DNA of 64,000 bases from Argopecten irradians (taxonomy: Eukaryota; Mollusca; Bivalvia; Pectinida; Pectinidae), in the NCBI RefSeq assembly GCF_041381155.1, contig NC_091138.1, positions 19,655,255-19,719,254 on the forward strand, written 5' to 3'. The number at the start of each line of letters is the position of its first letter. Positions within the stretch are counted from its first letter, which is position 1. Made by a program: the position numbers and the translations under genes. Positions 5,761 to 55,100 of the stretch are shown in pieces. The notes beneath the pieces were generated by a model. That model was given only the letters and a program-made list of their open reading frames with translations. It had not been told where the DNA came from and did not search any database.

Positions 5761-8700
5761 CTAAACTGGCTGTCGAACATCTAACTGCCCTGTATGTGTC
5801 TTAATTTCAAACAGGACGGGGATATGTTCTAGTTGTGGGTTCGTCTTTTGTAGGTATCTTATCCATGTTAAAACCGAATCACGAGAGTTAGTTCCTGTGA
5901 TACAAGTTGCCATCACAGTGCCATCGTCCTGGGCATGTATACTGGCAGGTACCAGAATAGATTTGTCCTCCTCATTGTCTGTCATGTAAGGATTCAGTCT
6001 GGTCCAATCAACATCAGGATCTGTTCACACAGAAAAAACCATAACACTCTCAAAGTTTCATATAAAAAATCCAATGACATTGTCTCATTCAGAATGATCT
6101 TCTTGATGAGCATACTAAATCTTTTTTTTATTAATATCAATATAAATCTATTTGTCCTCCACTAATTTTCTTTTCTTTTATATCCTTATCAAAAATGTAT
6201 TCAAGAAATTGTTTACTTTGAATAAACTATAGTTTTTAATGTTTTTAATGTAGTAATCTAGAGCTTAAGCCAACAAAAAATATTATTTTAAGCATCCTAG
6301 GTACTTTATAGTTATGTTGAGTTTAAGCCAACAAGATTATTTTTAGCGTCCCAGGTACTTTATACACTGTAGGTAAGTCAGATACACTAAAACTTGTAAA
6401 AATTGTATAGTGTAAGTAAACAGCAGTTTTTGAAATAGCTTCTTTGCCTATTTAAGAGTTATTTAGTTTGTGACAGTGTGCCAAACTATAGTTACTTTCC
6501 ACACAAACATAATAAAATTGACATTATCAGTACATTATAGAAGGAGAAGATAATTCTGTAAATATGCAATTATGTAATATGCAGAATACCATCTACATTG
6601 TAGTATTTGTACTCCTTTAAAGGCTGGTATAATGAACCCATTCACCCCTGGAATTATAATGGAATGTTCCTGTTCTGGAACCAGAATGGTTCCATTGTGT
6701 CTTCAGAGGTGAATGAGTGAATAGCTTACTTTCAGATTTCTACTCACCCTCAAACTCTGACCCCTCCTTTACATCACCCGGTGATTCCTGAGGTGTGCCC
6801 TGGTTCGACTGTAACACAAAATAGAAGAGGTCCTTGTGACGAAGCCAGACTCTATAGCTTCCCTTCACCACCAAGGGCGTATCTGTTGGATGGGCTTTTA
6901 TAAGGTCTGACTGGTCCGGACTCTGAGCACTAGCAATGAATGTGTCCTCCAAGGGATTTTCCTCAACTTCCACGGTCTATATAGAAGAGGTTTAGTGTAA
7001 ATTTAGCAATTCAATTTTATATTCATATATAAATAATTGCAGTAATTCTAGTTTATATTCACATATAAATAATTGCAGTAAAGACATTTAATCACAACAG
7101 ATAATCTGTTGGAGAGAAATGCCTCTTTGTCAGACATTTAATCACAACAGATTATCTGTTGGAGAGAAATGCCTCTTTGTCAGACATTGAATCACAACAG
7201 ATTATCCATAAGAAACTAGTTTATAATTACTACTAAAGCTGACATATCCATATCAGTTGAAACTGAGCAATGCAGATCAATCAATCAGAAACCTCCATCT
7301 TCTAGCCATTTTAAATCCTAGCTCTTTTTCATGAGTACCATCCCTCAACTTTGATAATTGTCATCTATTTCTACATATATGTATCATCTTATAAGACTCA
7401 TCTTACCAGATTTAAAAGATAGTTGCACAGATTAAAAAAAGACCTTGCATGCAAACAAATACACATACTCCTAAAAATCTAGATTTTATTATCAAAATTT
7501 TCATGTAAGTGTAAGAGGAGTAGGAATGCCTACTTTTATGACATTTTTTGTACAGAAATATAAGGTTTTACAGTGAATATAAAAATTATATACTTCATTC
7601 AGTGAAAATATCAATTTTGATTTTTACCTCATTAATTTGTGTGCAAAAATGACGTATTTTTGTGTACAAATATGAAGTTATGCTCACAAAACTACGATGT
7701 AATAATCGCAAGGGTAAACAACTGTAAAATACTATGGCGGAATAACCTTAGACGGAACTGGTAGTGATGGTCTTCTGTAAATGGAAGCCAGAAAACAAAT
7801 GTAATAAATAAGATATTCCATGTTTCTTGATGAATACCAGTTATATTTCATCTCGTAAGGTGGAAACTTTGTTATTTTTCACTCATGCGAAAATGTTAAA
7901 GTTCCCACCTCACTCGATGAAATATAACTGGTATTTATCAACCAGAAACATCCTCCATTTCTTTGGCCTATTTATAGTTAACACATGTTACCTTCCACAC
8001 TGTGACCCTATTGTTGAGGTCAATGGCCATTCGACGAAGGGCAAGGATGGCTAGCTGTATAGGGTCCTCGGGTAGATGGAACGGTACAGGGTAAGGATTA
8101 GCATGACGGAACTTCGGCATCCAGTACATCATTCGCATGTATTTTCTGGAGACATAGCTTCCATGACCAAACCTTTCTTCTATCATTATTTCCATTTTGT
8201 CATCAGGAATCACACCTTCAAAGAAAATACAAGTTTAAGTAAGCTTTTTTAAGCTTTTATAAGATACAGAATGGCTTTCTGTTTTTGTGAAAATCTAAAA
8301 AAAAAAAAAATATTTTGTGATAGGAAAGAGAAGATTTCAGGTGCTTGATAAAGAATTATATGTAAGGAGAATTAAAAACTATTAAAAAATTTAAGTTGTT
8401 ATAGTGAGAGACTCACAGAACGACTGAAGGACCAGTAAATATTCTTGTCTTTGTGCCCAGTAAAAATATTGTTTATCAGAGAATATTTTGCTTTTACAGT
8501 TTATGGACTATATTAGCAGTATTAGGCTAGTCCTATACATAGTTCATTGTAGTCTCAAATGAATACCATTTAGATTTTCATACATGACATGATGTTGACA
8601 GAAAATAATTGAAAAAATATTGAGACTGATTGGGTAGCAGAGCATATATCTATCAAATATTTTTATGAGTCTTACCATTATTTTGCATTTTCTCCAGAAT

Positions 8701-9381
8701 GTCTATGGCACACTGCTGCTGCTTTGGAAAATGTCCCAGTTCCATCATCCATTTTGACTTGGGGAGATATTTATCTTTAGGAAATACTTCCAGCATAGCC
8801 TTGTAAACCTCTTTGTCTTTGTGAACTCCCCACTCTTTCATATTTTCCAGACCAGTCATCAAAAACTCTACCATGCCTCTTTGGTAAACCTTCTCTCTTT
8901 CTTCATATAATTTCAATGCTTTTAGAAAATTTTCTTTGTTTTTGCCAGATTCGCCTATTTCTTGAAATATGTAAGTTGATAACTGAAACATTTTTCTTTC
9001 TGTATCAGTTATTTTAGGTTTCTTAGGAAGTATTCTCATATCGACAGGATTTTTCCAAAGATCGGGCTGTTTTGCTGTTTTTTCCTCTTTAACAGTTGAA
9101 GACACTTCATCATTGGTTAGAATCTTCAGCTGACCTGAATTGTTCTTTGCAGTCAATTCTGAATCTGACAGTTTCCTCTGGTGGTCACTTTGTTCATTTT
9201 CTGTGTGTTTCTGCTCTACAGTCTCTGGCTGGGCCTCCTGATGTCTTTGCGACAGTTTTTCACCTGAAGCACATCCTGTTGACCCTGTTTGAAATTCTCG
9301 TTTTAGGAACTTATACCGTTTTAATATCATGTGAATCTGTGATTTGCTGAACCTCAAAGAGTTAGCACTGCGAGGAAACAT
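5761..9381 (-). CDS. ECSIT: ECSIT: mitochondrial complex I assembly / Toll-pathway adaptor
   Basis: Minus-strand exons 9381-8676, 8215-7992, 6976-6748 and 6020-5761 (stop 5763-5761) sum to 1419 nt, 472 aa, in phase with GT/AG introns. Human ECSIT is slightly shorter (431 aa). Residues 1-30 are basic and serine-rich, consistent with a mitochondrial presequence. About residues 45-110 are a low-complexity polar linker. The conserved core begins near residue 120. Diagnostic stretches are GVHKDKEVYKAMLEVFPKDK, HFPKQQQCAIDILEKMQNNG, PDDKMEIMIEERFG, YWMPKFRHANPYPVPFHLPE and LRRMAIDLNNRVTVW. In vertebrates ECSIT works in complex I assembly with NDUFAF1 and binds TRAF6 and the MAVS pathway; those roles are inferred here from family only. 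The region encoded by exon 3 is the most divergent part. The ATG at 9381 is the first in frame and gives the presequence. Confidence 0.92.
7016..7080. repeat. Two-copy tandem repeat, ~35-bp unit
   Basis: The word TATATAAATAATTGCAGTA and its close variant recur about 36 bp apart inside ECSIT intron 2. No coding meaning. Confidence 0.6.
7083..7206. repeat. Tandem repeat, 50-bp unit, about 2.5 copies
   Basis: Unit starts GACATTTAATCACAACAG at 7083, 7133 and 7183, an exact 50-bp period with only one or two mismatches; the third copy is partial. It lies in ECSIT intron 2, directly after the 35-bp tandem repeat. Confidence 0.85.
7827..7942. mobile_element. Palindromic foldback MITE, copy 1
   Basis: Near-perfect inverted repeat: TTGATGAATACCAGTTATAT on the left pairs with the sequence ending ATATAACTGGTATTTATCAA on the right, and the arms continue inward (GGTGGAAACTTTG / AAAGTTCCCACC) to a loop of a few bases. 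A related palindrome lies at 21087-21200. It sits in ECSIT intron 2, close to the exon 2 donor. Confidence 0.75.
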
Positions 9382-9638
9382 GGCTGACCTTTTCCCTGTC
9401 AGATGAAACTAAAAAAAAAAATTAAAGAAATTGCAACTAAAATATTTCTAGAATGTCATTCAAAAGGACTTGGTCAATCTAATTACAGTATGTATCAATA
9501 AACAATTGGTCATATTCACTTTATGACTTCATTAACTTAAAATGCACTTTTTTATGGCCTACCAGAAACTTATCCAATTTCAATGTGAATTTATCCGCCT
9601 AATTTAACTGAAATGATAAGCTTGAAAGCTTCCAGAAA
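9382..9638. other. ECSIT 5' flank
   Basis: Sequence upstream of the ECSIT start codon on its own strand. It includes a short A-run and AT-rich DNA. Promoter and 5' untranslated region must lie here or beyond, but no specific element stands out. Confidence 0.35.
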
Positions 9639-11420: not shown

Positions 11421-12720
11421 ACCTTATACAATGCATATTATATAGACTACTGTACATTTGTGTAACGTTAGGTGTTTTCTAGTGGTATACTCACTCAGAT
11501 ACTAGGGACATGTTAGAAAATACACAGTATAAACATATAAACAGTTTTAAAAAGACTTTATCTACTTTCATTTCACAGAATCCTGATGAAGGGTAACTAA
11601 ATGATCACTCAAACGCTGGACTGTTACTCAAATGGAGCACTCTTCCTCATAAGCGGGAGTGTGCTCAACCTGACATGTAACGTTACTGTGTATAATGCCC
11701 CTGTATCCTGTATATGCAACATAGTAACTTACAGGACAATACAGGTGTATTTTCTGTTGTTTTTAATTTGCATCTTCAACGTTATCTGCTTACATACTTA
11801 CTAAAACACATATCCTTTACCTTGAAAACAAATATTATGCAAGCACGGATGTCCTAAAGGCGTGAAGATGAAAGCACGTGGACGAAGGTCAGTGTTTGCT
11901 TGCTGTCATTTTCACCGGTGACATATTTTTTCCTCCACGCAGAAGATTCTTTTACAGGGGAGACTACTTCGCACATCCAACATGCAAACAATTATTATAC
12001 AAGTTTATCAATAGCAGTGTAATGTTTCGTTATATATATATTAAGTGTCATTCGTTAAAATCAATTTGATTGATTATAATTCCACTTTATTTATTTATTT
12101 AAATTTCATGTACTGTAGACTGTACATGTAAATGTACGTACATGTATGTATACGTACATCTGTACATTTGTAGGCCTAACTTATACATGTACATGTAACA
12201 ATAGTTTAATCGACAATATGATGTATGCAAATGTAACGACAGTAATAGTAACCCCTGGAGTATCGAGAATGTACACAGCCATGAGTAAATCTAGAGTAAA
12301 TTAGTAGATTTTTGCCACGCTAAAGTAAATTAGTAGATTTTTGCCACGAGCATCCAAACAACTTCTTCGACTGTTGCTTCATATACGTGTACTTGTAAAC
12401 ATGCATTATATAGACCGTAACTAGAGAGAGAATACCGTCAGCAAACCATGATAAATACAAAAATTACACATGTACAGTTTTGTATATGTATACATATTTT
12501 CATCGTGTCTAGACGGCTCTTTAGAATTTACATGTATATTTAAAATAAATATTATAATTTATGACATCGTTTTTATACCAAGTATAACATTTGATGTTTA
12601 GTCAAAGAACCTACCAGATTTCGCAATGCGTTGATCAAATCACTTACATTGTATCTCAAACGGCATATGGAGAGATGAGTATAAGAGTGAACACCAAAAC
12701 ATCCATTTTTGAACTAGAGA
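11421..12720. other. Non-coding stretch with small simple repeats
   Basis: No exon supported. It holds a TGTACATG/TACGTACATG-rich patch at 12105-12215, a single MITE-like end (CCCCTGGAGTATCGAGA) near 12252, and a perfect 29-bp tandem duplication at about 12296-12353 containing TTAGTAGATTTTTGCCACG. Confidence 0.45.
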
Positions 12721-19874: not shown

Positions 19875-22800
19875 ATGGATTATGACGAGGAGTATAACTT
19901 CAGTCAGGGAAGGTATTTTGCAGCTGTTAGTAATACTAATCTAGGGTATATAACAATTCCTTCTGCTAGTTTTGCTGAAAACAAAGAAAATACAATTACA
20001 TTACATCAGATGGGCTACTATAAAATCTATAATATAAAATCTATATAATATAATATTATATATTTTTGTTGTTGTTTGTTGTTGTTTTTTGTTTGCTTGT
20101 TTGTTTGTTTGTTTGTTTAATGTTCCTGATTTCTGGTCATCTGATTTATAATACAGTCAAACCTCGAACCGCATACATGTATATTGTTAGACAGGAGTTT
20201 AACAGAAGATTTGTTTTATGGTCGAAAACTGGACTTTTAAATTTTTTAGTTCACTAATAATTGTTATCAATTGTTGTCTATACTTCTTGGTACTATAGAA
20301 AGAATTAATGGATTTGGCCTACTCTCTATATAGCGGTAGCTTGTATGGCAATTGTTGTGATGTTTGCCTTATAAACATCTTTTAAACGTGAAACTGACAC
20401 GAACACTTGGGTTCAGTAGCTGGGTTCAGGAGATTGGTCGAAAAGTCTACCATGAAAGTCACTTTATTAGATAACTATAAATGTATCGTATAATTGTAAC
20501 TTTTGAATCCTATTTTGATATTGGATTAATGGCTATGATTCAAACGTCTTACGTTCTAAAAAGATATTATTTGATATAGAGGAAGTTTTATACAAAGATA
20601 GGTATATGTAATAGGTCACTGTAGCCATGAACAGTCATTCATCGTCATATTTTGAGTTAAAATATGATGCCATTCAACATTTTAACATAATTTAAGGTGA
20701 AATTGAGTTGAGGTCAAAACACAGAAATATCCGTTTTCATTACATTTTTCAGGGTGAAATATTACATTTTATGGTAAATATATGTGGTATTTTTAACCAG
20801 AGCACACAATATTTACTGTAAAAATATCGTGGTGGCGGGAATACCATTTTTTGAAAACATTAAATCGAAAATATGATATTACATGCATCTGCCCAATATT
20901 TTTAAATGTTAGAGGTAAAAATGTTGCGCATTAGATTTTCTTATATAATTTTTCGACAAAATGTGTGCCTTATGTGTGGAACTATAAATTAATTGGGAAA
21001 ATCGCGACGGATTGAAATGCATGTACTGGTATCATTTGGTCTACAATAGAGACGTAATATGTAATAAATAGAATTTTACCTTTTTCCTCATGAATAACAG
21101 TTATATTTTATTACGTGTGGTGGAAACTTTGATATTTTTCACGAGTGCGAATATCAAAGTTTCCACCCCACTCGATGAAATATAAATATTATTCATCAAA
21201 AAAAAAAGAAACAAGGACTATCCTCTATATCATTATATCTAGATTAAAGCCCTGTATCTTAACGTATGGTGAAGATATCCACTGCACAATAAATCAGACC
21301 CACGTCAGGTCAAGGTAAAAGGTCACTTTGGTCAAATGTTTTACTAGGTTATTCATATACATATGCTTGCTAGCTCATTTTAATGTAAAATTAAATTTGA
21401 ACATTTCAGCAGAGCAGGACCAATACAGATCCTTAATCTTGATGACGAAGTATCGACAAGCAATAGAGACGATAGGAACGGAAGGGGATCAGGAAAAAGA
21501 CCACCTAGAGGCAGAGACTCTTCTCAAAGTAGGGACTTTGGAAGAGGAGGTAGAGGAAGAAGAGGAGATACTCGAGGAAGGGGAGATAATCGAGGTCGGG
21601 GCGATAGTCGGGGACGTGGAGATACTCGGGGAGGGGGTTATAGGGGACGGGGCGAAACTAGGGGACAAGGTGATTATCGCGGGAGACGGGGCGATCGAGG
21701 AAGAGGACACAGCGAACACAGAGGCGCTGGAATGCCGTCTGGAGTGTCGGAACAAGATGGCTTTGACCTTCGGAGATATTCTTCTATGAGCAGTTTAGAT
21801 TCTGGACCAAGTCAGCATGAAGGACATGACAATGGTAATCATTTATATAATAATGAACCACGACAGAGGAGAAGTGCTTCACGTACCAGAACTGATAGAA
21901 TATTCGGATACAGGAAGTTAGATGAGCTGTCTAAAAAGGCCAATGTCGATAATGTTCTAATGGAAATATTATCGGAGAGTGGTGGATTTCAAACACTATT
22001 GAAGAATACCAATATGCCTATCGACTGGAGTAGATTGCTAATAACCGTACTGGGCAAAGCTTGTTCCTCCATGAAAAGCCACAACAAATTACAATTGGTT
22101 GGCCTTCTTGTACAAGAGAATGTCATGTTGCTTCAAGTTACCTCATTTCTTGGTAAAGTTCAGTCCAGAATTGTGCACCTTTCTTCTGACCAACTTCTGA
22201 ACCTTATTCAAGATATTTGTAAGATAATGAAGGAGTTGATGCAACGTATGCCACAAGAAGTACACTCAATTACCAGTGCGTTAGTGATGATTACTGCAAT
22301 TTGTCAAGATACTTCATTTAGTTTACAACATAATGAGGATACTCTAAGGTTGATAAACGAGATATCTTTGACCAAAGATACTATCATCAAAGACTTGGAC
22401 AATCAAATGAGGGAAAGAAACATGCAACCTGGCGGTAGACGGAAACATCGTGATATGGAATCGCTTCCACCACCTGACAACTTCAAAGACCTACCTATTT
22501 TGCCTAACCTAAGAGACTTGCAGTTCAACGAGAAACCATTCCTGAGAAGAAACAAGGTGGATGGCTGCTATGATGACTTGCATCACTACCTGGACGTACA
22601 ATTCCGTTTACTACGAGAGGATTACATTCAGCCTCTGCGTAATGGAATAACCGAATATCGGAGGGGCAAAAAAGATGGTAAACAAAAATATCAAGACATA
22701 CGTCTGTATCACAAGGTCAATATTGTGAGACCTATCTGTTCTAACAACGGAATTCTACATGTCATACAGTTTGATGTATCCAAAATGAAGAATATGCGAT

Positions 22801-25800
22801 GGGAATCCTCACGTCGGCTTCTTCACGGATCTCTGGTTTGTTTATCCCAGAATGACTTTGAGACGATTTTCTTTGCCACTGTAACAAATCGTGATGTCAA
22901 ATTACTTTCACAAGGATTAATTGAAGTCCAATTCAAAAACAACTTTCAACAAGTATTTGAGATCAAACCAAGTGAGGAATTCATTATGGCGGAAACAACT
23001 GCTTACTTTGAGGCTTACCGGCATATCCTGAGAGGTCTCCAGGAGATCGAAGATGGCTTACCGATGCAGAGATATATTGTTGAATGCAAGCAAGCTTTAA
23101 AACCTCCAAAATACTTACAAAATGATATTCATTATTATGACTTCAGTCCTCTTCTTCATCAAAACGAATCTTCTGAAGAGTGTTTTCCCGTTATAAATAC
23201 AAGACAATGGCCGAGAGCGGAACAACTGCAGCTAGACACATCACAATATCGTGCATTGCAGATGGCTTTGACGAAGGAGATGGCACTCATTCAAGGTCCA
23301 CCGGGGACAGGAAAAACGTTTGTAGGATTGAAAATCATGCAGCTGCTGCTACATAACGCCGATGTCTGGAGAAGGTCCAATGACACAGACACCGACGGAG
23401 AACCGAATGATTCCATACTGGTTGTATGTTACACAAATCATGCACTTGATCAGTTTCTGGAAGGCGTATCTGAATTTTGTGATAGTATTGTTCGCATTGG
23501 CGGGCGTTGCAGCAACCCAACTCTTGAACCATTTATGCTGAGCAATCTTCGAAAAGAAGCTAGGATAAATAGACAGATACCTAAACTTATCTGGGAGAGA
23601 AAAGCTGACTGCAAGAAAAAAATGAACCTCTTGAAAGATGAAATTGAAAATGTCAGCGCCAAGCTTGATGCCTCCCGGTTGGGACTAATGCACGAGAAAT
23701 CACTAGAACTCTTCATAGGGTCAGACCATTATAAGGAGCTGAATCGAGGCTGTCCGAAAGGCACAGATTTCTCCGCTATATTTCACTGGCTCTCATCTGA
23801 GCTGCATGCAATCAATCGTTACTCAAGAGACAGCAGCGCATTAAAAACAACTGTTGATGAGTACTCAGCATATTCAAAATGGCTTGACTATGTCATTAAT
23901 GGTCCATCCTTTGACCTTGATACGGCGGATATGTTAGAGGGAAATTTATGGAATAAGAAGCTTGTTGAACGTTTGTGTGTATACAAACAGTGGGTTAGCT
24001 CATACATTGCATACAAACAGAAATGCATTGATGATGTAACGGAGGAAATCCAAGCACTTGTAGAGGGGAACAACAAGTCGGACAATAAGAGGCTAAAACA
24101 CCAGCAGGCGCAACTTGAAAGTCTTCGAAAAGACGCCCAAAATGCCGAGACATATGTAATGACAGAGAAAAACTTAAAAGATGGACTCAGATTGGAGCTG
24201 CGCCAGCATCTTGATCGCCTAATCAAAACAAAACCAAACGCGTCTCTCCGTTGTTCTGTTGTGGAGCACTGGTTGCATTTAGACAAAACTTTTGATCCAG
24301 ATGGATTATTCACCGAAGCACTGGAAGCAATAGCATTAGTGTCCGAGACCATAGATACACTTGAAGAAGCAGAGGCGGCAGAACTAGAACGTACAATTGT
24401 AGATAAAGATGATGAAGATGATAATCAGCGGTCAAGAACCCATGAAGTCTTGCTGTCTAAGGCAATGTCCGACTTGTCTTATTCCTTTATCGGAGACGCG
24501 AATGGGACTGTTACATCAAAGACAGATATGGATTGGCAGTTGGTGACTTCTTTAAAGAAAACTAAAGAAGATATGCGAAAAATGCTAGACCAGAGCCAGA
24601 CGATGTCAGAAAAGGAAGAAGCAATGCAGCCTGTTGATGTATGGACTTTGTCTGTGGAGGCTAGGTTTTCTCTATACAAACTTTGGCTTTCAAGGTATCA
24701 GGATTCTCTCAGTTCCTCGATTCAAGATATTGTACAACAATATTCAGATATCTGTGACGTTTATCAGGAGGTGATGGATTCCGAAGATGTGGATATCATC
24801 TCAGGGTCGCGGGTTATTGCAATGACAACGACGGGGGCTGCGAAATATAGAAACATCTTGAGGTCTGTCAACCCAAAAATCATAGTAGTCGAAGAAGCTG
24901 CAGAAGTTTTGGAATCTCACATTGTATCTACTATCAATTCGAACTGCCAACATCTTATCCTTATTGGCGACCACAAGCAACTCAGACCTACCCCTACAGT
25001 CTATCAGCTAGCTATTCAGTATAATTTGGAGATATCATTATTTGAAAGAATGATTAAGAACCAGATGAACTATGTCACATTGGAACTGCAGCACCGCATG
25101 CGACCAGAGATTTCAAATCATATGCGACTCATCTATCCAGATTTACGAGATCATCCCTCTGTTCATGGAATGAAAAATGTACTCGGAATCGCTAGAAACA
25201 TGTACTTTATCGATCATAGTTTTACAGAGACGTTCCACAGCGAAACAAAGAGTCGCTCGAATACTCACGAAGCGGAATTTATTGTTGCGCTGTGCAAATA
25301 TCTGCTCCAGCAAGGATATTTACCAACACAAGTGACAGTTTTGACCACATACACTGGTCAAGTATTCGCACTGAAGAAACTCATGCCTAAGAAAGAATTT
25401 GAAGGCGTTCGAGTGACAGCGGTCGACAACTACCAGGGTGAAGAGAATGATATCATTTTGCTTTCTTTGGTTAGGAGCAACAACGACGACAGTGTTGGAT
25501 TTTTGAAAACAGACAACCGAGTATGTGTTGCCCTATCAAGAGCAAAAATGGGGTTTTATGTGATCGGGAATTTCACTCTTCTGTGTTCACAAAGTATCCT
25601 CTGGACAAATATTGTTGCATCTCTCAAGGACAATGAAGCCTTCGGTTCATATCTGATGCTGAGATGCCAAAATCATCCAGAGAAAACTATCAAGGCCTCA
25701 TTGAAGAGTGACTTCAGCAAGGCTCCAAACGGTGGCTGCTCAACACCGTGTAATACCCGTCTCCCGTGTGGCCATGTTTGTGAACAATTTTGCCATATAA

Positions 25801-28800
25801 CTGACAGCGATCATAAACTATACCGGTGTTTGAAACAATGTACATTGACAGTTTGCAATAACGGACATGTTTGTACAAGGAAATGCTGGCAAGAATGCGG
25901 AAAATGTATTAAGCAAGTCAACAAGACTATACCATATTGCGGACACAGCCAGTTAGGTCCATGTCACCAGGATCCTCACACCTTGAAATGCCAATCCAAA
26001 TGCAAAGGAATACTACCTTGTGGACACAAATGCGACAAAATCTGTGGAAACTGTAAAGAAACCAACACGCATCAGCTTCAATGCCCAGAGCTTATTCAGC
26101 GCAAGTTGATCTGTGGGCACACAATTGAGTGTAAATGTTTCCAGAGGAACATTGATATCTCCTGTACAGAGAAATGCACTACCGAACTGAATTGTGGCCA
26201 TCCCTGTTCAGGAACATGTGGAGGCTGTTTCCAAGGTCATTTGCATATGCCTTGCTTTGAGAGGTGCAATAAGATGTTGATATGTGGTCATAAATGCGGT
26301 CAAAAGTGTGGTGAACCATGTCCTCCATGTGAAAAGAAATGTAGTCTTCGCTGTGAACACAGTCAATGTTCGCTTAAATGTGGTCAGCCATGTCGCAACT
26401 GTGCAGAGCATTGCAAGTGGGAATGTGAGCATCAACGTTGCACTAAACTTTGTTATGAAGTCTGTGATAGGTTACCATGCGACATGCCGTGTCCAAAAAC
26501 ACTTGAGTGTGGACACACATGCTCTGGTCTTTGTGATGAGATTTGTCCACAAATCTGCTTTTACTGCAATAGGACAAAAGCGAAGAAAATTTTCAAAGAT
26601 GCAACTCCGGCCACTAGATACATTGTGTTAGAGGATTGTATGCACACATTTGAAAAAGAGACTTTGGATATCTGGATGAACGCTGATGTGCTAAGCTCTG
26701 AAACATTTAGTAACTTAGAAATGAAGAAATGCCCAACCTGCAGTAAGCCTATCAACAAAAGCAAAAGATATGGCAATATAATCAAGCAAACACGAGTTCT
26801 CGTCAACGAGGTAAAACAGCAGCTTATTGGCAGTAAAAGGAAAATTCTTACCCACTGTCAACAAACGAAAGATTCTTTGCTCAAGCTCAAACCAGTAGAT
26901 ACAGAAAGCTTTGATATACTGATGCGTAAACTTGAACCTGTAGCACAAGTGACGATGGCATCTCTTGAAGTGATTAACATGCAAATTAAATTACTACAGA
27001 GTATTAACGACAAAGTACAAACACTAGAAAAGATCAATGTCACACAATTCCAAAGAATGGGTATGCTGATCAAAGTATCACTTCTCTCCTTAAAGAAATG
27101 GGTAACGGAGACAAAGTACAAACCTAACAAAACGGAAATAAGGTGCAGAGCTCGCCAGACTTTTACCCCACAAGAACTGGCGGATGTTAGGGAAGAGATG
27201 CTGAGATTAGCATACGTCGCTGAGGTGATCCGCTGCGCAGAGCAGAGCCATTTGTCGGGAATCTCAAGTTTGACTACGCAGTATGTCGAAATTCATGATA
27301 TCTTGACAGATGGACGACGTATGACACAAACTATGGATGAGAGGCTCGTCAAAATTTTTAAAAGTTTGGCAGACAGAAATCCTTCATGCCTACCAATATC
27401 CGAACAAAGATGCATACCAAAGACTATGAAAGATTTTGCTCAAAAAGGACGATGGCTGAAATGTAATAAAGGTGAGTAAACCAGAATGTTACTTAAAGAT
27501 CCGTAGAAATGAAAATTATTTTTTTATTATCCTCTTATCTCCCTAAGTAGCAGCCTCAACAAAAATGATCGCACGATACTATCCTTTGACCAAAGCAATT
27601 CATTGATTAAATCTTTTCCCTTTGGTGAGAATTGCTATAAGGAAACACGTTGGTGTCGAAGTAAAACGAAGGTAAAACGAAAATGTGTTAGATTATCATT
27701 ATTTTGTTGTTTTATATGCTAAACCTTTACGAATATACGAAATGAAGACTGAAAAATCATTTACTGTATAGTCGCGAGGGTAACAGTTCGCGATTTACTG
27801 TTGGGAACGTATTTGTTAGAGTTTCTTTTCGTGAATTAGATTTGTAATCTTTTAAAGCGTCAGTCTTACGATAGGCTAAAAACGTGAAACCATGTTTTGA
27901 TAAATTTGGTGTGGAATTTAATTTTACGACTTTGGATAGATCCGCGAAATTAAAACATCTACGAATATTAGCAACTACATGTATACAGTAGCTTATATAT
28001 AAATAACTGAAGCGTTACAATCTAAGTTCACATTTTTTTAATTATTGTGTATATTTGCATAACATTATTTTTCTTTTTGCGATTCAATATTTGCATCGAT
28101 GGGTTTTTTATCGTAATGTTCTGTATTCATATTTTTGTAGCTAATCATTTGCTTACCGGAGAAATGGCGTTAGGAACAGAATGCCCGCGGTGTATGAAAG
28201 CAGAGGCAGCCAGAAAAAGCAAGACTACAGAACAAGTCCCGTCTAAAACATTGCAACAGGGTCCGTCTCAATCGAGAAACTCCCTACAGGTGGCTGAAAA
28301 AATAATTGAACAACGAAAGCTTGATTCAGACATTACTTCGTCCCAACAATATAAACTCACATCTTTCTCATCCTTAGATACAAATGAGATTGCATGCCTT
28401 ACGGATCACAAGAGCAAGTATAGTTTGAATTCAAATAGTGATGCGGTACAGCAAACAAAAGCGAGAGAATCCAGTGTTTACTTGGAAAATGTCCCATCAA
28501 TCACGACATCTGGAGAAGGAAAGGAATACACTGAACCTCCTGTCCCGGCACCCAGAAGAAGCAAATTCAAACTACCCAAATCTAATGACGAAATGGACTA
28601 TAGAACAAATTCATCGACGCAGACAAGAAGCGCACTTGCAGATGGTATAGGGACGAAATCGGGTAAGTTAATAACAGATCAAATCAGGAAAAACAAGAAC
28701 ACTATTGACTGTACTCAACATGACATTCTGAAATGTAGTAATATCTTCTTTCTTTTTAATATCAGAATCATGAATTACTTTCTATATCTCATACTTATAG

Positions 28801-31800
28801 AATGAATAGGTTTTTGTAACTACATTGTACATGGTGCAAAGCATTGCTGTTTTCAAACAACACTAGCATTTTTCTATTGAAATAGGTATTTAAAGTAGCC
28901 GTATATTGATAAAGAAAATGCTATTGATCTAAAAATTAATCTTGTAAACACAGTCATTATTAAACCTTTGATCCTTATTACGTCGTGCACATCTTCCTTT
29001 GACAGACGCGCCATCGAGAATATCGTACAGCAGAGAGTATCTTATGGAGTTAAGATCCTCACCTCTATCGCAAGTACCCTTACCCTGCCTACAGAACTCG
29101 GACCTTACTATAGTCAATACATATCAAGACAAGACAGAGCAAAAAGGTATAATGTATTCCGTATTGTTTATTTTATATGTATACATGGTATGTATTTGTT
29201 CGCAAAAACATATACAAAGGAGCAAAGTATGAAAGAGTAAAGAATATCCCTCAGATACTCCGGGGAATCTGGGTAAAGGATTTTAAAATTTTGAGAGGTT
29301 TCTATATTGGCAGTCTTGAAAAAGCTTTTAAAGTTAAAATGACTGCATTGGCATTGCCACCAACATCACATATACCTGTGTATTGGCATACATATCTGAA
29401 GTTAAAGTTAAAACAATTTTACGGAGTGTGTGGCATTAATAAAAAAATATTTGAGGAGTATTGTACCATGTGTATTACATGCGCTATTAACACATTGTAT
29501 TTCTCAATTAACTGATATTTTCATTCGTTAAAGTCTATCAGGAGGCAAAGCTTTTACATTCCAAATTATTACAAAACCATAATTGGGTTTTAACGCACAT
29601 CTTGAATGTGTTCATGATATTTGAGATGGATCAGAAATAATTCTTCTACATATTTAACATTAAATTAGGAGAACCAGTGTCAACCGAAGATGTTCAAGAA
29701 ACAAGCTGGATGTCGTCTGTTTCATCAGAAATGGTAGCAAGACGACAGAACATACACAATACCGCCGAGTTACAATGGACTGAACCCAAAGCTGTGGCTC
29801 CGGAAGCTGTAATGTCATCAAAGGGAAGCATTGAGTATACTAAAACCTTCTTTACTTCTCAGACGAAAGCAAACCAAGGTAGGTCGTCATTCGATGCTGG
29901 GGTTTTTATGTGATCCTCTACTTGTTCTCTTTTCGAAAAAAAACACTATCAAAAAACATTAGAATAGATGCATGAATTTGTCTGTTCTTGTTTTCCTATA
30001 CAGTAGACTTAACACTAGAAGATGCTACGGAAGAAGGGATGGGAGAGATAAATGAACGGTTTAGCCCATCCAGGCTTAAATGGACAGAGGCTAAGCCTCT
30101 TGCGCCTCAATCTTCAAAATTACCTCGACAGATAGCTTCAGAGTTTACGAAAAAGTATTACACTCCCCAAGTGGATACTGAAACTGGTAGGTCTTTGGGT
30201 GATGCTCCACCGCCGACATAACATAAACGATAGCCATCATTTGAACAATAATTGGTGTTTAATAATGTATATTTATGTGTGCAATTAACACAAAAATACA
30301 TATAAGATAATTTGTATTGCTTTTGGTGCTTGCGAAATCAGTACTGTTATTGGATTGATTTCGGGACGCAATTATTTTTAATATTTTATATCAAAATAAG
30401 AAGCTCATACTTTTCAATTGTGGTAATGGTGTGAAGTAAGTAATTTTTATCTTACTTAAATATCAATGCATGTTTAATCAGCAATTACGGAAAATCTCTT
30501 GCTGTAAAGAAGGGATTTTATAACCAACTTCACATAATAGTAAATAAGATTTTATGAAGATGTTAGCTTTCTTCCTTTCCTCCCTACATGCTCATTAACA
30601 TTAGAAGGGTCTATGGAAGGACAGTTAGGGGTCACCAAACATGTACACGACCAACACCAAGCTAGGATAAGGAGTGGACAATATGATTCAGTCAGATTAC
30701 AATGGACATCCCCTAAGCCTATTTTATCGTCACCAGGAGAAGGCAATGGAGAAATGAAAGATTCTGAAGAGTGTAAGTGAAATCAAGGATATGAAATAAT
30801 TTCCTTTTTAACAGATACCAGATGTTTTCACGGATGCAAAGCATGAGAATTGTGGTTTACTTGATTAGTTCACTTGCAATTAAGAGCCGCGGTCATAATA
30901 GGACACTTGATCTATGTGACCTACAGCTAGAGATTAGGGCATATGGTGGAATATTATAACTTTTTGGACCCCGTGGTCATGTTTACATAATTTCAGAATT
31001 CTCAGAAAGTACAGAATGGATCTTCATCAAATTCTATGCAAAGTTTACATACTGAAGCTTTTTAGATAATAGAATGAAATATTCAAATATAGTTCAGACA
31101 TTTTTTATTTCTATTTACCTTCTTTTTAGAAAATCCATTGATTCATGATCAATGTAGAATAATGAATTATTTTTTCCTTCTGTTTGTTTACTAAGCGTTT
31201 GACATTTCATTCAGCAGATAAGTTGGAGAATGCTTTATCCGACGAATTGGAGACCCTAATGAAAACTTCAAAGAGAGAGGACATTAGTAGAGAAACGAGA
31301 AAACCAGCGGGAAGGCAATGGACTGATCCAAAACCCGTACAGAAAGACGAGGAAATCACTACAGTACTGGAGAGGGAAGCTACAAAAACGTACTTAGCTG
31401 CTCAATCCGACAATAAACAATGTAAGTAAAACATATACAGCTACCATGTGTTACGTCATCCTCGATATTCTAGGAGTTATTATCACTAACGTTATATGTA
31501 CCTCTCGGATACAGAGTGTTCAGTTAGTTTTGCTCCTTAAACATTCATTTTCAATTGTTTGTCATGCTCTTTGATATTGTTTTGACTTTGTTGATTAGAC
31601 TACTTAGAATGGCTGAACATGCTAAATATCTGACAGCTGCAAATCCATAGACTGATAATGATTATCACTGTAGAAATACAAAACGATATGCATATAGGGA
31701 GATGAATACTTAAACCTATTGTCAGCCCAAATCGTAACCAGATTGGTGTTTGTCGGTCAAGTACAATAAACTCAGTGAAGAAATTGCTAACTTATAATAA

Positions 31801-32001
31801 CTAAACCTTTTCGTCCTTCTTTTTTTAGTGTCAGAATATTCCGTTGATCCGTTGCCAAGGCAATCCGACATTTTGTTCCAGTGTATAGAACCAGGATGTT
31901 CCGATATAGAAACGCCTGGCTGCTCCGGGAGATGTAAGAGACATTATGTCAATCGCGAACTATCTTTGCTGACAAAGATAAAAAATTTCATTGCGAAATA
32001 A
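19875..32001 (+). CDS. ZNFX1: ZNFX1-like SF1 RNA helicase with NFX1-type zinc fingers and a repeat-bearing C-terminal extension
   Basis: Nine coding exons: 19875-19912, 21410-27471, 28141-28662, 29006-29146, 29669-29878, 30004-30186, 30605-30772, 31215-31421 and 31829-32001. All phases agree; 7704 nt, 2567 aa (human ZNFX1 about 1918). Order: short acidic start MDYDEEYNFSQG; RG/GRG-rich disordered segment (about 38-118); armadillo-like helices (about 170-330); UPF1-type helicase with Walker A GPPGTGKT (642-649), DEAD-like EEAA (1174-1177), HRMRP (near 1241), YQGEE (near 1354) and VALSRAK (near 1387); NFX1-type C/H-rich fingers (about 1456-1735); a conserved DCMHTFE...CPTC block (about 1750-1790); a degenerate RZ-type finger (2028-2051) split by an intron; then about 500 residues of extension with a PVPAPRR proline motif, four WT-x-P-K repeats and a final Cys/His cluster. 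Mammalian ZNFX1 senses viral RNA; nematode ZNFX-1 supports small-RNA inheritance. The exon 1 start is inferred from matching phase; the next in-frame ATG is at 21732. Confidence 0.92.
20060..20119. repeat. GTT/GTTT microsatellite
   Basis: Run of GTTGTT and GTTTGTTT units in intron 1 of the ZNFX1-like gene. Confidence 0.8.
21087..21200. mobile_element. Palindromic foldback MITE, copy 2
   Basis: Arms GTGGAAACTTTGATATT and AATATCAAAGTTTCCAC pair around a short loop; the outer words CATGAATAACAGTTATAT and ATAAATATTATTCATCA also pair. It is related to the palindrome at 7827-7942, and both are preceded by GTAATAAATAGA-like sequence. It lies in ZNFX1 intron 1, about 210 bp before the acceptor. Confidence 0.75.
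27472..28140 (+). other. Intron 2 of the ZNFX1-like gene
   Basis: Intron with donor GTGAGT at 27472 and acceptor TTTTTGTAG at 28132-28140. It separates the first cysteine of the RZ-type finger from its histidine and last two cysteines. Reading through the donor would end the protein two codons later at GGT GAG TAA, giving a shorter protein with an incomplete last finger. Confidence 0.7.
30200..30455 (+). mobile_element. TTAA MITE, copy truncated at both ends, next to a splice donor
   Basis: Starts GATGCTCCACCGCCGACATA, 14 bp after the exon 6 donor GTAGGT at 30187, and can be followed to about 30455 (GGTAATGGTGTGAAGTAAGTA); the right end is missing. Same orientation as copies 1, 3 and 5. Confidence 0.75.
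31455..31505. mobile_element. Single MITE end (CATCCTCGATATTC family)
   Basis: GTCATCCTCGATATTCTAGG resembles the terminal repeat of the element at 33435-33748. No partner end found; in ZNFX1 intron 8. Confidence 0.4.
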
Positions 32002-32288: not shown

Positions 32289-32294
32289 AATAAA
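32289..32294 (+). terminator. Candidate polyadenylation signal of the ZNFX1-like gene
   Basis: AATAAA about 290 bp after the stop codon at 31999-32001. Further hexamers lie near 32560, so the 3' end may be variable. Confidence 0.4.
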
Positions 32295-33434
32295 TGTTTT
32301 AAACAATAGTAAGCTATATATATCATAAGATATTATCATCATCGTTTTTGATGTAGTTTGCATGTTAAGATATAAATAATGTTACCTTTAGTCAGCTGTG
32401 TATTTGATACAAATAAGCATTGTAAATATTTTCATGCTTATTGCCTTCAAGAAAAAATGGTAAATGAACACCTAGAAATTTACAAAAACACAACATACTG
32501 TGATCAGACTAACTTTCGCGTGCAGTAGAATTGGACGTATACGTATTTCGTGGTCAATAAAATAAATTGCTGCAATAAAACCAAACCTAAAAGTACAATA
32601 GAATTTTACTAAAAACTTGTAAGATTATTACGCGTGAAATCGCGAGATCAAGTCACCGTGAAATTCAACTGGTTTACAGTATAATAAACTGGTTTAAAGT
32701 ATAATAAGCTGATCAGTGATGTCACGAAATTCCGGATTCATGATGTCAGATGTAAATATGCCAGAGTAAATAATATTCTTTATATGTAAAATAAAATGAC
32801 ATTATTTATTGTTGATGATACTGTTTACGTGTCAATATTTTATAGTATTTTGCTGATGTTATTTTCATCTTGCTTGACTTAAATACCTATCACAGATGGG
32901 TTTTATTGTTATTATATTTAAATACTTTATTGTAATCGAGGAATGTTTCGCAAGAGAGGATTTCAGTTTTTGGTACTGATGTTCCTCACACATATTGCTT
33001 TAAGATATGTTGTGTAAATACATTTATGTCACCGCAGCTAATTTTAAGCAAATTTTTAAATGTGGATCGGCCACAGAAAAAGAATACCCCAAAAGAATTG
33101 TGATGTTTACAATAATTAGAAATGAGAATATCCTTTCACTGAAAACATCCCTTTTCATTTGGAACTGTATGCTTTAAATTAGCATACCAATATTAGCCAA
33201 CAAAGACACCTACTGACATAAGTGATAACACAGGTGAAAGTAATATCATGGAGGATTTTGGTATTTACATTTATAAACTACTATAATCCTCGCATGTTTT
33301 GCTAACGTTTTAAGAAATAACATTGTCATACTTGCTGTATATAGTGTAAATATGTACATATTAAGCAAATGTCAATTTTATTACTCAATACAATGTACTT
33401 TCACTTTTAGAAATATGAATTATCACGTTTTAGT
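32295..33434. other. Non-coding stretch after the ZNFX1-like gene
   Basis: AT-rich; probably 3' untranslated and intergenic sequence. A short near-duplicate CTGGTTTACAGTATAATAAA / CTGGTTTAAAGTATAATAAG lies at 32670-32710. Nothing else recognised. Confidence 0.4.
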
Positions 33435-33748
33435 CATCCTCGATACTCCAGGGGTTCCGATCACTTACGGTCTCTACACCCCTGGACTATCTCATAGTAA
33501 AACTGGAGGCAACAGAACAGAACAGGTAATTTAGTCATTTGATGTACATCAAAAGGGACGTATAACGGTACACTGTGGTTGACTACGTGGCTTTGATGTT
33601 AGGCGTCGCTCTCTGTGTAGTCTTCAGAGGAAATCTTTGCTAGCCTGTAATTGGTCAAATGTTTTCCACTGAACTTCCTTCAATTTCACTATGTGATGGT
33701 CCAGGGGTGAAGAGATCGTAAGTGAACGGAACCCCTGGAATATCGAGG
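33435..33748. mobile_element. Inverted-repeat MITE, CCTCGATACTCCAGGGGTT family
   Basis: Left end CCTCGATACTCCAGGGGTTC and right end GAACCCCTGGAATATCGAGG-like sequence are inverted; the pairing continues for about 50 bp (CACTTACGGTCTCTACACCCCTGGAC on the left). About 311 bp; no coding capacity. The target duplication is unclear. Related ends occur near 12252, 31455, 56604 and 57323. Confidence 0.8.
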
Positions 33749-51727: not shown

Positions 51728-52177
51728 CACGTAGATCTCTGGTGTTGTAAATCAGTCGTGTTACGCAAATCCCATAGGTCTAGTTTCCTCTAAATCCTAG
51801 AGTATCGATATTTCTAGAATGCGCCAAGGTTACTTCGTCTTCAGCCGCAAGTCGATCATTTCTTAGGCTAAAGTCTTAGTGACCTGTGGTAGCCCCGCCT
51901 CCTTTCGATTTGAAATCGAGGCGGTAATAAACAGGCCTCGTTTCGAAACCGAAAGTAGAAATTGGTCTTCAGCGTTAGTTTCCTTAATTTATGTCTCGCT
52001 TTTTACTGGTTCGATTCAATCATTTAGTTGATCTTATTGTTTATTATCAATGCACACCAATTAAACATATCTTATTAACGTTTTCGTAATTTTCTCTGAT
52101 TCAATCTCCTGTTTTCACGGAAGCTACCGATATGTGACGAGTGCTCACGGACCAGAAATCATCGATTGTTTACAAAC
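51728..52177. promoter_or_regulatory. Shared head-to-head promoter region of the FYVE/ARM and fucosidase genes
   Basis: 450 bp separates the two divergent start codons (51727 minus, 52178 plus). It is more GC-rich than its surroundings at 51840-51970, with a CCCCGCCTCC GC-box at about 51893. A palindrome also lies here, CCGCCTC-CTTT-CGATTT-G-AAATCG-AGGCGG, within 51894-51925. No TATA box is evident. Both 5' untranslated regions must lie here, so the true promoter is shorter. Confidence 0.5.
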
Positions 52178-55100
52178 ATGGAAGCAAGAGTGCTCGTTGC
52201 ACTTTGCTTACTGTGTGTGTTTACTTCCATTTCCGCAACTAAATATGAAGCCAACTGGGATTCAATAGACTCAAGGCCTTTACCGAGCTGGTTTGATGAA
52301 GCGAAAGTAGGAATTTTCTTGCACTGGGGAGTTTTCTCGGTGCCAGCGACTGCTGAATCCCCATGGTTCTGGTACTGGTGGAAAACCAACACACCTTTGT
52401 TTGTAAAATTCATGAAAGATTTCTACCCTCCAAACTTCACTTATGCTGATTTTGCTCCTCAATTCCATGCTGCCTTTTACAACCCTGACCAGTGGGCAGA
52501 CATTTTTGAAGCAGCTGGAGCAAGGTACAAAAATGTATTTAAAAAGCAATTAATAATTTGACTACCCTGCCCGTTAAATGACATTTTGTTGGGGGCGTAT
52601 TGTCCCACCCCATCTGAAGTATAAGTAATTATAAGTATACTTAATTTATGAACGCAGGCAAAACCATTGTCATTTTAAATATTGATGTGAATTGCATGAT
52701 AACTTAATATTCACTCCTTCTCTGTTCTTGTTCAGTTCTACTGTGTGAAAAAAAAAAATTACATTTAAAATATACATTTTGACAAAGTACATTTATTGGT
52801 CTGAATGCATAAAATTTATCCTCGTATCGTGACATCAGTCTTAGAAAGACACATCATTTTTCTATCCAAGGGTGGACAACGAACTCTTTAAATGTACTCC
52901 TCCATTTTGTTTTCTTCTTTCCGTTTCGCTTCGCTTAGCAGCTCCTTTTCATGTTCACGCTGCATTTTTGTTGAATCATTTCTTATTGGGCAGTTGATTA
53001 CTCCGCTCGACTATTACTGTCCTTAATGTTTCTGAATATTTTCCTTTTTGTTTCCGATGATTGTACATGTCCTAGTTGAGATACAAGAATTGTCCTTCCT
53101 TTCGGCTCCATCTTGGTAAACACTGATCTGTTGATTCTGTATTAAGGAAGAAATGAGTATCTGGGCTTATATTTTCTGCATCTTTAAGTTTTAATCACCA
53201 TGTTGTAAATTAATATGATATTTCTACATGTTTAAAATTTTTAAGGCAATGAAAATAAAAATTAAAAATTAAATACAATACATGTAACATTAGATAAAAA
53301 AATATCACTCTAGAATACTACAGTACATCTCATAGATCCACAAATTTTAAGGAAAAAAAATCACAATCAGTTCTAACACTCTAGTCACACAACCACAGTG
53401 ATCCAATAAAGACATTTGTGAAGATGTCATTTGTTTTACGACGCATTAATTTTGGCCATATTATTTGACATACAGTTTGTTAAATTTATGTTGATAATAT
53501 ATAGCACAAGCATATAAAAATTCTTCCATGTGTTTATGCAATATATTATTGTCACAATCATGTGGTATAGAGTCATATTTATTGTGGTAACAATCATCAT
53601 CTGTACATATTGACAGTAACTGTTATTGTGGAAAAATAAAACAAAGGTCGTCAGAAGTGTAATAGGTTCTTCTGCTACCATAGTACAGTACATGTACTGT
53701 AGAACAAATGGGAATTCTGAAATGACAATTTCTTGTATCATAAACCTGACTTAGAGCTATCAGATTAATGTAAATGTATTGAAACAGAAGATGACAGTAT
53801 AAAAGATTAAAGTAATTATTATTTATGAATTCTTATCACTTGTTGCAGGTACATTGTTCTTGTTACCAAGCACCATGAAGGCTTTACTCTATGGCCCTCC
53901 AAACACTCCTGGAACTGGAATGCTGGTGATGTGGGACCCAAGCGAGATCTCCTAGGTACAATTACATTACTTATGGCATTTCATTTGATCATCATTACTA
54001 TTTTATGGTCTGGTGACATATAAAAACCATGCACAAATTTGTTTACTATTGTAGACTGATTTAAATTTTATCAGTCACCTGCCAATTTAAGCAATGTTGT
54101 TTTCAGGTTGTATTACATTAAAATCAAATCTACGGTAGTACCCTCCAACAGCTTAGACTATAAATCAATTATCATTATGAAACATTAAGTCAGTATTTAA
54201 CATGCATGTATTTCTCAGTTTTTTAAGATAATTTTAAGTTAAAAGAACAATCACCTTAATGGTTTAATTTGGAACTGCTTGTTCAATTTGATTTGAAGAC
54301 CTGGCATTTGACATAGTGTTTTAGTGTTTGGCTTGTTTATAAATGGCAATCTGATTAAAATACAGATCCTTATAACCACTCCATTCAAAAGAGCATCTGA
54401 CAACATCCCATCAGGGGTCATGTTCAGATGACCTTTATACAACCTGTTCATCAGATCAAATGCATTTTCTACACCTTGCTTCATCAATCGAAAAAGCCAT
54501 TTGGTCCCAGTATACATATACAATTAGCTTTGCTGCGCTCTTTGGGGGAGATGACTATGGACATGAAAACAATTCTGACAACTTTTTGAATCAGTTTCGT
54601 CCCCAGACAAGATTCTGGTAGCAGCTTTTGATTGGCCATTTCCAAAGGTCACCTGACCCCTAATGGGATGTTGTCAGATTCTCTTATAAAACATAGTGAC
54701 AACAATGATCTGTAATTTAATCAGATTAATTTAAATGATTTTCTGACAATGGTTAAAATGAACACTGTTCCAGTATATACTTGTCTCTACAACAGGTGAT
54801 TTGGCTGTGGCCGTAAGGAAAAAGAAGAATATGAGATTTGGAGTGTACCATTCATTGTTTGAGTTCTACAATCCTGAATTTCTCCAAGACCAAGCCAACC
54901 ATTTCAAAACTCAAGATTTTGTTTGGGTAAGTATACTTCTAAATTATTAAAGCTATATATAATGGTAATTATATTACAGCCCAGGAGGGGTGGATAGAAA
55001 AAAATGTGATTATCTCCCCTTTCACATATTTTTGGAGGTAGTGATGAAGAAAATTTGCGCAAGTCATGGAAATTACCAGCAACAAAACCTGATTTTCTCA

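Follow-up and report, generated by a model that had tools for sequence, protein, structure and literature searches.

The question raised by a 64,000-nucleotide stretch of the Argopecten irradians genome (NC_091138.1, positions 19,655,255 to 19,719,254; hereafter the window) is what a ZNFX1-like helicase carries behind its degenerate RZ-type zinc finger, where a tail of 516 largely disordered residues follows, and what such a tail might do. The answer that we favour, with somewhat better than even confidence, is that the gene is a divergent ZNFX1 paralog that has probably lost the ubiquitin-transfer activity of its RZ finger and gained an eIF4E clamp together with an array of short motifs built around Trp-Thr (WT motifs). 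The analysis covered the DNA sequence of one 846-Mb genome, in which the window lies on contig C5. The long helicase exon is numbered e1 and the seven exons downstream e2–e8; exons 4 to 8 of an earlier, sequence-only reading of the window correspond to e3–e7. The exons and a possible end of the transcript are as follows.

21384..27471, plus strand: e1, the long ZNFX1-like helicase exon; 21384 marks where the open frame begins and may not be the start codon
28141-28662 (522 nucleotides), plus strand: e2, second half of the RZ finger, then a disordered Ser/Thr/Lys-rich tail
29006-29146 (141 nucleotides), plus strand: e3, predicted 4E-BP-type eIF4E-binding exon, phase 1-1
29669-29878 (210 nucleotides), plus strand: e4, repeat unit 1; the acceptor may alternatively be at 29672
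30004-30186 (183 nucleotides), plus strand: e5, repeat unit 2
30605-30772 (168 nucleotides), plus strand: e6, repeat unit 3
31215-31421 (207 nucleotides), plus strand: e7, repeat unit 4
31829-32001 (173 nucleotides), plus strand: e8, last coding exon, with the stop codon TAA at 31999-32001
32556..32561, plus strand: AATAAA, a possible polyadenylation signal by pattern only, 0.55 kb past the stop

All seven introns between e1 and e8 have GT/AG borders and are in phase 1, and together the exons form one frame of 2564 codons that is closed by its only stop. Alternative acceptors lie 3 bases downstream in e4, e5, e6, and e7, and alternative donors in e4, e6, and e7 would shift the frame. When the three forward frames were compared by a codon-use score trained on e1, the predicted frame was the most e1-like in seven of the eight exons (e1 itself being the training set), and the introns scored negatively in all three. 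In a charge and hydropathy classification, e2–e7, six of the seven extension exons, fell into the disordered class and e8 into the ordered class. Further AATAAA or ATTAAA strings follow the stop at 32289, 32574, 32683, and 32790. These results indicate that, as a gene model read from the DNA, the extension holds and continues the helicase frame. The sequence-only reading had described seven further exons after the helicase exon, five of them of phase 1-1 (141, 210, 183, 168, and 207 nucleotides); the lengths and phases agreed with this description, and that each of e3–e7 could be skipped without a frameshift, as it had also proposed, follows from the phases alone.

The helicase exon is ordered as an RGG-rich N-terminus, the ZNFX1 domain, a superfamily 1 (SF1) helicase core of AAA_11 and AAA_12, Cys-rich repeats, and the first half of the RZ finger. 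The Pfam families ZNFX1 (PF25396, 122.1 bits), AAA_12 (PF13087, 138.6 bits), and AAA_11 (PF13086, 104.2 bits) were matched above their cut-off of 27 bits each, and the Walker A string GPPGTGKT was present with four further helicase strings. Cys/His-rich repeats are visible in e1, and at E values up to 0.01 neither e1 nor the ZNFX1 copy on contig C14 matched an NF-X1 finger family. The RGG-rich part at 21500-21740 is of a kind usual for RNA-binding proteins. In the genome, the 16 match rows at E values up to 1e-20 fell on the window itself and on related loci on C14, on C11, at three places of C4, and at two of C1.

The C14 copy (L028) shares with the window copy the ZNFX1 domain, the AAA_11/AAA_12 core, and an intron that interrupts the RZ finger in phase 1, the two copies being 41.1% identical over 1793 aligned residues. 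The C14 finger reads KCPNG, intron, HVYAIGDCGGATVEGRCPEC and matches Pfam RZ (PF20173) with 83.5 bits, whereas the window finger, split by its phase 1 intron between KCNK and ANHLLTGEMALGTECPRC, matched no Pfam family at E values up to 10; its second half, NHLLTGEMALGTECPRC at 28143-28193, forms the start of e2. For the RZ finger of RNF213, C4505, H4509, C4525, and C4528 are given as zinc ligands and C4516 as the predicted nucleophile (PMC11549300). The C14 finger has the same spacing as RNF213, C-x3-H-x6-C-x8-C-x2-C. The window finger retains a C, H, C, C set that could hold zinc, lacks any cysteine from the His up to the CPRC pair, and is four residues shorter than C14 from the His to the last Cys pair (11 versus 15). 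Because the intron position is conserved, this region can be read as a decayed RZ finger, and because no cysteine stands at the catalytic place, RZ-dependent ubiquitin transfer has probably been lost in the window copy. The C14 protein ends 44 residues past the last RZ cysteine, whereas 516 residues follow in the window copy. When the C-terminal end of e1, joined to the start of e2, was searched against the PDB, the three matches were all engineered pancreatic ribonuclease (E 0.048-0.053); no chain of ZNFX1 was among them.

The intron inside the finger, common to the window copy and C14, also places e2 with the helicase, and it bears on the possibility that e3–e8, or e2–e8, form a separate downstream gene. 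Four of the seven introns contain AATAAA or ATTAAA strings, as a separate gene would allow, but the RZ finger is interrupted before e2 by an intron whose position and phase are those of the canonical C14 paralog, and all later junctions are in phase 1 within the one 2564-codon frame whose only stop is at the end. We judged a separate gene very improbable because of the conserved intron within the finger; for e3–e8, only frame and splice phase suggest the link to the helicase. A promoter scan of the first intron with bacterial patterns was uninformative for an animal gene. The degenerate state of the RZ finger, claimed in the sequence-only reading, is borne out by the missing Pfam match and the missing catalytic-position cysteine; its claim that the extension starts behind the finger needs amending, since the intron cuts through the finger itself.

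The catalytic cysteine is likewise missing from a C4 paralog (CPKG, intron, GHIGSTFFNKKKCFQC) and from the C11 paralog (CNRG, intron, DHPTPSDLL, the exon being read by eye). Downstream of these decayed-RZ paralogs, long Gly/Arg-rich open frames that matched no Pfam family are seen at 6807-8138 of the C11 locus (L029, C11:28163000-28172900) and at 7494-8450 of the C4 locus (L030, C4:26602000-26611900); if they belong to the helicases, tails may have been gained repeatedly behind the RZ finger in these paralogs. Two further ZNFX1-like copies are possibly broken, by introns or as pseudogenes: in that at C1:10290000-10299900 (L033), both match rows run across one TAA, and that at C4:186000-195900 (L031) is split over several frames. 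Overall, these comparisons suggest that the window gene, a divergent ZNFX1 paralog, was rebuilt behind the zinc-finger array, a reading that we hold with moderate confidence.

By sequence likeness, e3 encodes a 4E-BP-type eIF4E-binding segment, RISYSREYLMELRSSPLSQVPLP, with the motif YSREYLM (of the form YxxxxL-phi) at 29026-29046 and, in addition, an RxSP elbow. The Pfam family eIF_4EBP (PF05456, cut-off 24 bits) matched e3 plus 10 residues of e4 (57 residues) with 25.3 bits (E 1.5e-5). A six-frame scan of the whole genome with the same family scored five candidates and returned four matches at E values up to 10, namely two 4E-BP exons (58.9 and 51.3 bits), e3 (21.1 bits), and a fourth site (16.0 bits). 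This fourth site, which reads KRLYDRDFLLQMQ...LPDLPDI and weakly matches the Pfam family of eIF4G eIF4E-binding segments (14.3 bits, E 0.041), is taken to be eIF4G, so that, e3 apart, the matches fall on two known eIF4E binders. In a phmmer search of e3 against PDB, all seven matches up to E 10 were 4E-BP1 or Thor (E 0.017-0.46).

The 4E-BP gene of the same genome, at about C5:48272435-48275589, reads as intact, and its exon 2 (186 nucleotides) is, like e3, of phase 1-1. Aligned with this exon, e3 is identical at 11 of 24 residues and positive at 18 of 24, and its score of 62, where shuffles average 20.7, was reached by none of 10,000 shuffles. The eIF4G site scored 44 against the same exon (reached by 5 of 10,000 shuffles), and e2 and e4–e8 remained at shuffle level, with 474 to 836 of 1,000 shuffles reaching their scores. 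The motif Tyr is residue 6 of 4E-BP exon 2 and residue 8 of e3. Farther along, e3 carries L, I, and V at +26, +28, and +29 from the Tyr, and 4E-BP carries a V at +27, in PGV, about where it makes its second, non-canonical contact with eIF4E; this contact is named as important for affinity (PMC8558276). IF4E family matches were found at two loci of the genome. The sequence-only reading had grouped e3 simply as a symmetric exon and missed the 4E-BP-type segment seen by Pfam, the genome scan, and the shuffles. These results suggest, with moderate confidence, that e3 arose as a copy of the exon through which 4E-BP binds eIF4E, and the simplest history would be the capture of such an exon into a phase 1 intron. 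That e3 binds eIF4E is, in our estimate, likely.

Behind e3, the following motifs were located.

29770-29793, plus strand: LQWTEPKA, WT motif of e4
29833-29862, plus strand: EYTKTFFTSQ, second motif of e4
30075-30098, plus strand: LKWTEAKP, WT motif of e5
30141-30170, plus strand: EFTKKYYTPQ, second motif of e5
30697-30720, plus strand: LQWTSPKP, WT motif of e6, which has no second motif and is 11-12 residues shorter past the W
31313-31336, plus strand: RQWTDPKP, WT motif of e7
31376-31405, plus strand: EATKTYLAAQ, second motif of e7
31882-31944, plus strand: Cys/His cluster CIEPGCSDIETPGCSGRCKRH in e8

The W-to-E spacing is 19, 20, and 19 residues in e4, e5, and e7, respectively, and in all three the E stands 15 residues before the exon end, so these exons share one plan. 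For the six pairs among e4–e7, the ungapped best score was reached by none of 300 shuffles in five pairs and by 11 of 300 in e5-e7; of the 15 control pairs, which involve e2, e3, or e8, 14 were reached by at least 31 of 300 shuffles and e7-e8 by 13 of 300. By these scores, e4–e7 are related by exon duplication, and they are best read as a multivalent array of short motifs. Both the WT and the ExTK motif are absent from the long C14 open frame. The four WT motifs and three second motifs of the sequence-only reading, and its terminal Cys/His cluster, were all found in place, and its proposal of a duplicated motif array holds for e4–e7; e3 is not clearly related to them. The Cys/His cluster matched no Pfam family; a single-sequence AlphaFold2 model of e8 shows a terminal helix, but its confidence (mean predicted local distance difference test score 62, predicted template modelling score 0.29) is low and too weak to use. 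In e2, a proline-rich PPVPAPRRSK at 28536-28565 resembles a CIN85/CD2AP-type SH3 ligand.

The spacings WT-x-x-K-P and E-Y/F-x-x-K-Y/F resemble the microtubule-binding Mn-type motifs of MAP6, SAXO, and MDM1, in which case the tail would tether the helicase to microtubules. This similarity of spacing is what speaks for it; none of the four units matched a Pfam family and no such PDB chain was found, although short motifs can escape such searches, and we regard a microtubule tether as very unlikely. Among the candidates considered for the array (Mn-type, PAM2, PIP-box, and Argonaute-type W motifs), none was supported, only the Mn type having been checked, through the family searches.

The likeness of e3 to 4E-BP could also have arisen by chance or convergence, with the tail as a scaffold that has no part in translation and acts mainly through the WT array. 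Loose YxxxxL-phi matches are frequent, here and according to PMC3763552, the genome-scan score of e3 is under the cut-off, and six of the seven extension exons class as disordered, all of which would suit such an origin. It is countered by a similarity that extends past the motif over 24 residues and that no shuffle in 10,000 matched, by a score of 62 with 4E-BP exon 2 that is above the 44 of the genome's own eIF4G site, and by the equal exon phase class and nearly equal place of the Tyr (residue 8 versus 6). We consider chance or convergence fairly unlikely. Several results nevertheless weigh against the capture of a 4E-BP exon and the gain of a clamp and array. The eIF_4EBP score falls just below the cut-off when the 303-residue tail is used (23.4 bits, E 5.9e-5), and in the six-frame scan the E value of e3 was 0.148; the PDB E values are weak. 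Against the genome's own eIF4G site, e3 scores only 30 (reached by 182 of 10,000 shuffles). The second eIF4E contact is a match in spacing only, the PGV of 4E-BP being absent from e3. The loose motif pattern has two further matches in e1 and two in C14, and because such matches are frequent the 4E-BP claim rests on the flanking similarity. The codon score of e3 does not favour its predicted frame (0.09 bits per codon, versus 0.20 for the +2 frame and 0.13 for one reverse frame). None of the four WT units matched a Pfam family at E values up to 10, giving no partner family, and a PDB profile search with a WT unit gave one unrelated match (E 0.91). The C4 and C11 paralogs, without the RZ cysteine, have no 4E-BP match, so that cysteine loss is not tied to the gain of e3. 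Finally, the support is the sequence of a single genome.

With a captured 4E-BP exon as the favoured origin of e3, a mechanism can be proposed. Phase 1-1 exon shuffling would have brought the 4E-BP exon into a ZNFX1 paralog; the helicase would bind RNA while the tail docks eIF4E on its eIF4G-binding surface. The outcome would be repression of cap-dependent translation close to the bound RNA, or the drawing of eIF4E into a helicase-RNA assembly. The four WT exons may add avidity for a partner, and exon skipping could tune their copy number. The STTPGG repeats and the C-terminal TOR signalling (TOS) motif FEMDI, read in the genome's own 4E-BP, are not found in the helicase tail, and control by mTORC1 would be weaker or absent because the tail lacks both.

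Binding of eIF4E might instead serve recruitment, the helicase riding capped mRNA through e3 and remodelling or protecting it. Reported eIF4E binders include DDX3 and Angel1 (PMC3763552), and e1 has the helicase motifs that were sought in it, both consistent with recruitment. However, e3 is closer to 4E-BP, a competitor of eIF4G, than to eIF4G (62 versus 30), and the 4E-BP and eIF4G sites on eIF4E overlap (PMC8558276), so that binding should exclude eIF4G. Recruitment in this form seems to us unlikely, and repression, given eIF4E binding, is moderately probable. A review (PMC13270118) describes ZNFX1 as a ubiquitin ligase activated by RNA, which ubiquitinates single-stranded RNA or quarantines it. 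More tentatively, and as a possibility that we would not put on a level with the conclusions above, an RNA-sensing paralog may have given up RNA quarantine by ubiquitin and acquired a 4E-BP of its own. With the RZ nucleophile lost, the 4E-BP exon captured, and an expandable array of duplicated W-motif exons behind it, the helicase assembled on foreign or aberrant RNA would hold eIF4E locally and halt cap-dependent translation, outside normal mTOR control.

If true, this would suggest that an RNA-sensing helicase core can be re-coupled to another output, translation control, and the locus would show exon shuffling within an innate-immunity family clearly and in a form open to experiment. For two paralogs of one genome, opposite assay outcomes are predicted from the two changes, namely ubiquitin transfer by the C14 copy and eIF4E binding by the window copy.

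No second copy of the extension was found elsewhere in the genome: a 360-residue e3–e8 query gave 10 candidates and six matches, all to its own exons, and the first 60 residues of e2 matched only themselves. A single WT unit also matched only itself, in a search that was insensitive, missed the three sister units, and could have passed over weak relatives. In collections of viral and prokaryote contigs, 27 and 69 stretches, respectively, matched a pattern and none was a relative, as expected for an animal gene. Limited searches of open-licence full texts found no description of such a ZNFX1 tail or a 4E-BP capture. Three ZNFX1 genes appear in an immunome study of the sea hare (PMC9334734), with no such tail mentioned in the passages concerned, and in a ZNFX1 study 4E-BP1 appears in the antibody list (PMC10906457).

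Elsewhere in the window, the open frame at 8653-9408 (minus strand) contains an ECSIT N-terminal domain (97 bits), from another innate-immunity-related gene, and an alpha-L-fucosidase exon (127.1 bits) lies at 52100-52561 (plus strand). A dispersed element, CCTCGATACTCCAGGGGTTCCGA, occurs at 33438-33460 (plus strand), 33726-33748 (minus strand), and 12246-12268 (minus strand), and also downstream of the C14 paralog. Two of the three window copies are opposed, 0.3 kb apart, and the element looks like a small inverted-repeat transposon.

Compared with 4E-BP (EIF4EBP1/Thor), the tail has in common the eIF4E-binding segment, the RxSP elbow, and the phase 1-1 exon. It contains only the part like exon 2, within a 2564-codon helicase frame, whereas 4E-BP is a small free-standing protein; the STTPGG repeats, which lie in exon 1 of 4E-BP, and FEMDI are both missing from the tail. 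In 4E-T, Cup, and GIGYF2, which are not helicases, an eIF4E-binding motif likewise has other short motifs behind it along a disordered chain. The partner motifs of these three proteins were not recognised in e4–e7 by eye, no search for them being made. DDX3 is a DEAD-box helicase of superfamily 2 and thus of another superfamily than the SF1 helicase of the window. DDX3 is listed as an RNA helicase that interacts with eIF4E (PMC3763552, PMC8558276), and 4E-T and Cup are described as binding eIF4E (PMC8558276). Angel1 is a CCR4-family member and not a helicase, its gain is described for vertebrates, and its description mentions no captured 4E-BP exon where the motif is treated; like, on our reading, the window helicase, it is a member of an enzyme family in which an eIF4E-binding motif was acquired in one lineage (PMC3763552).

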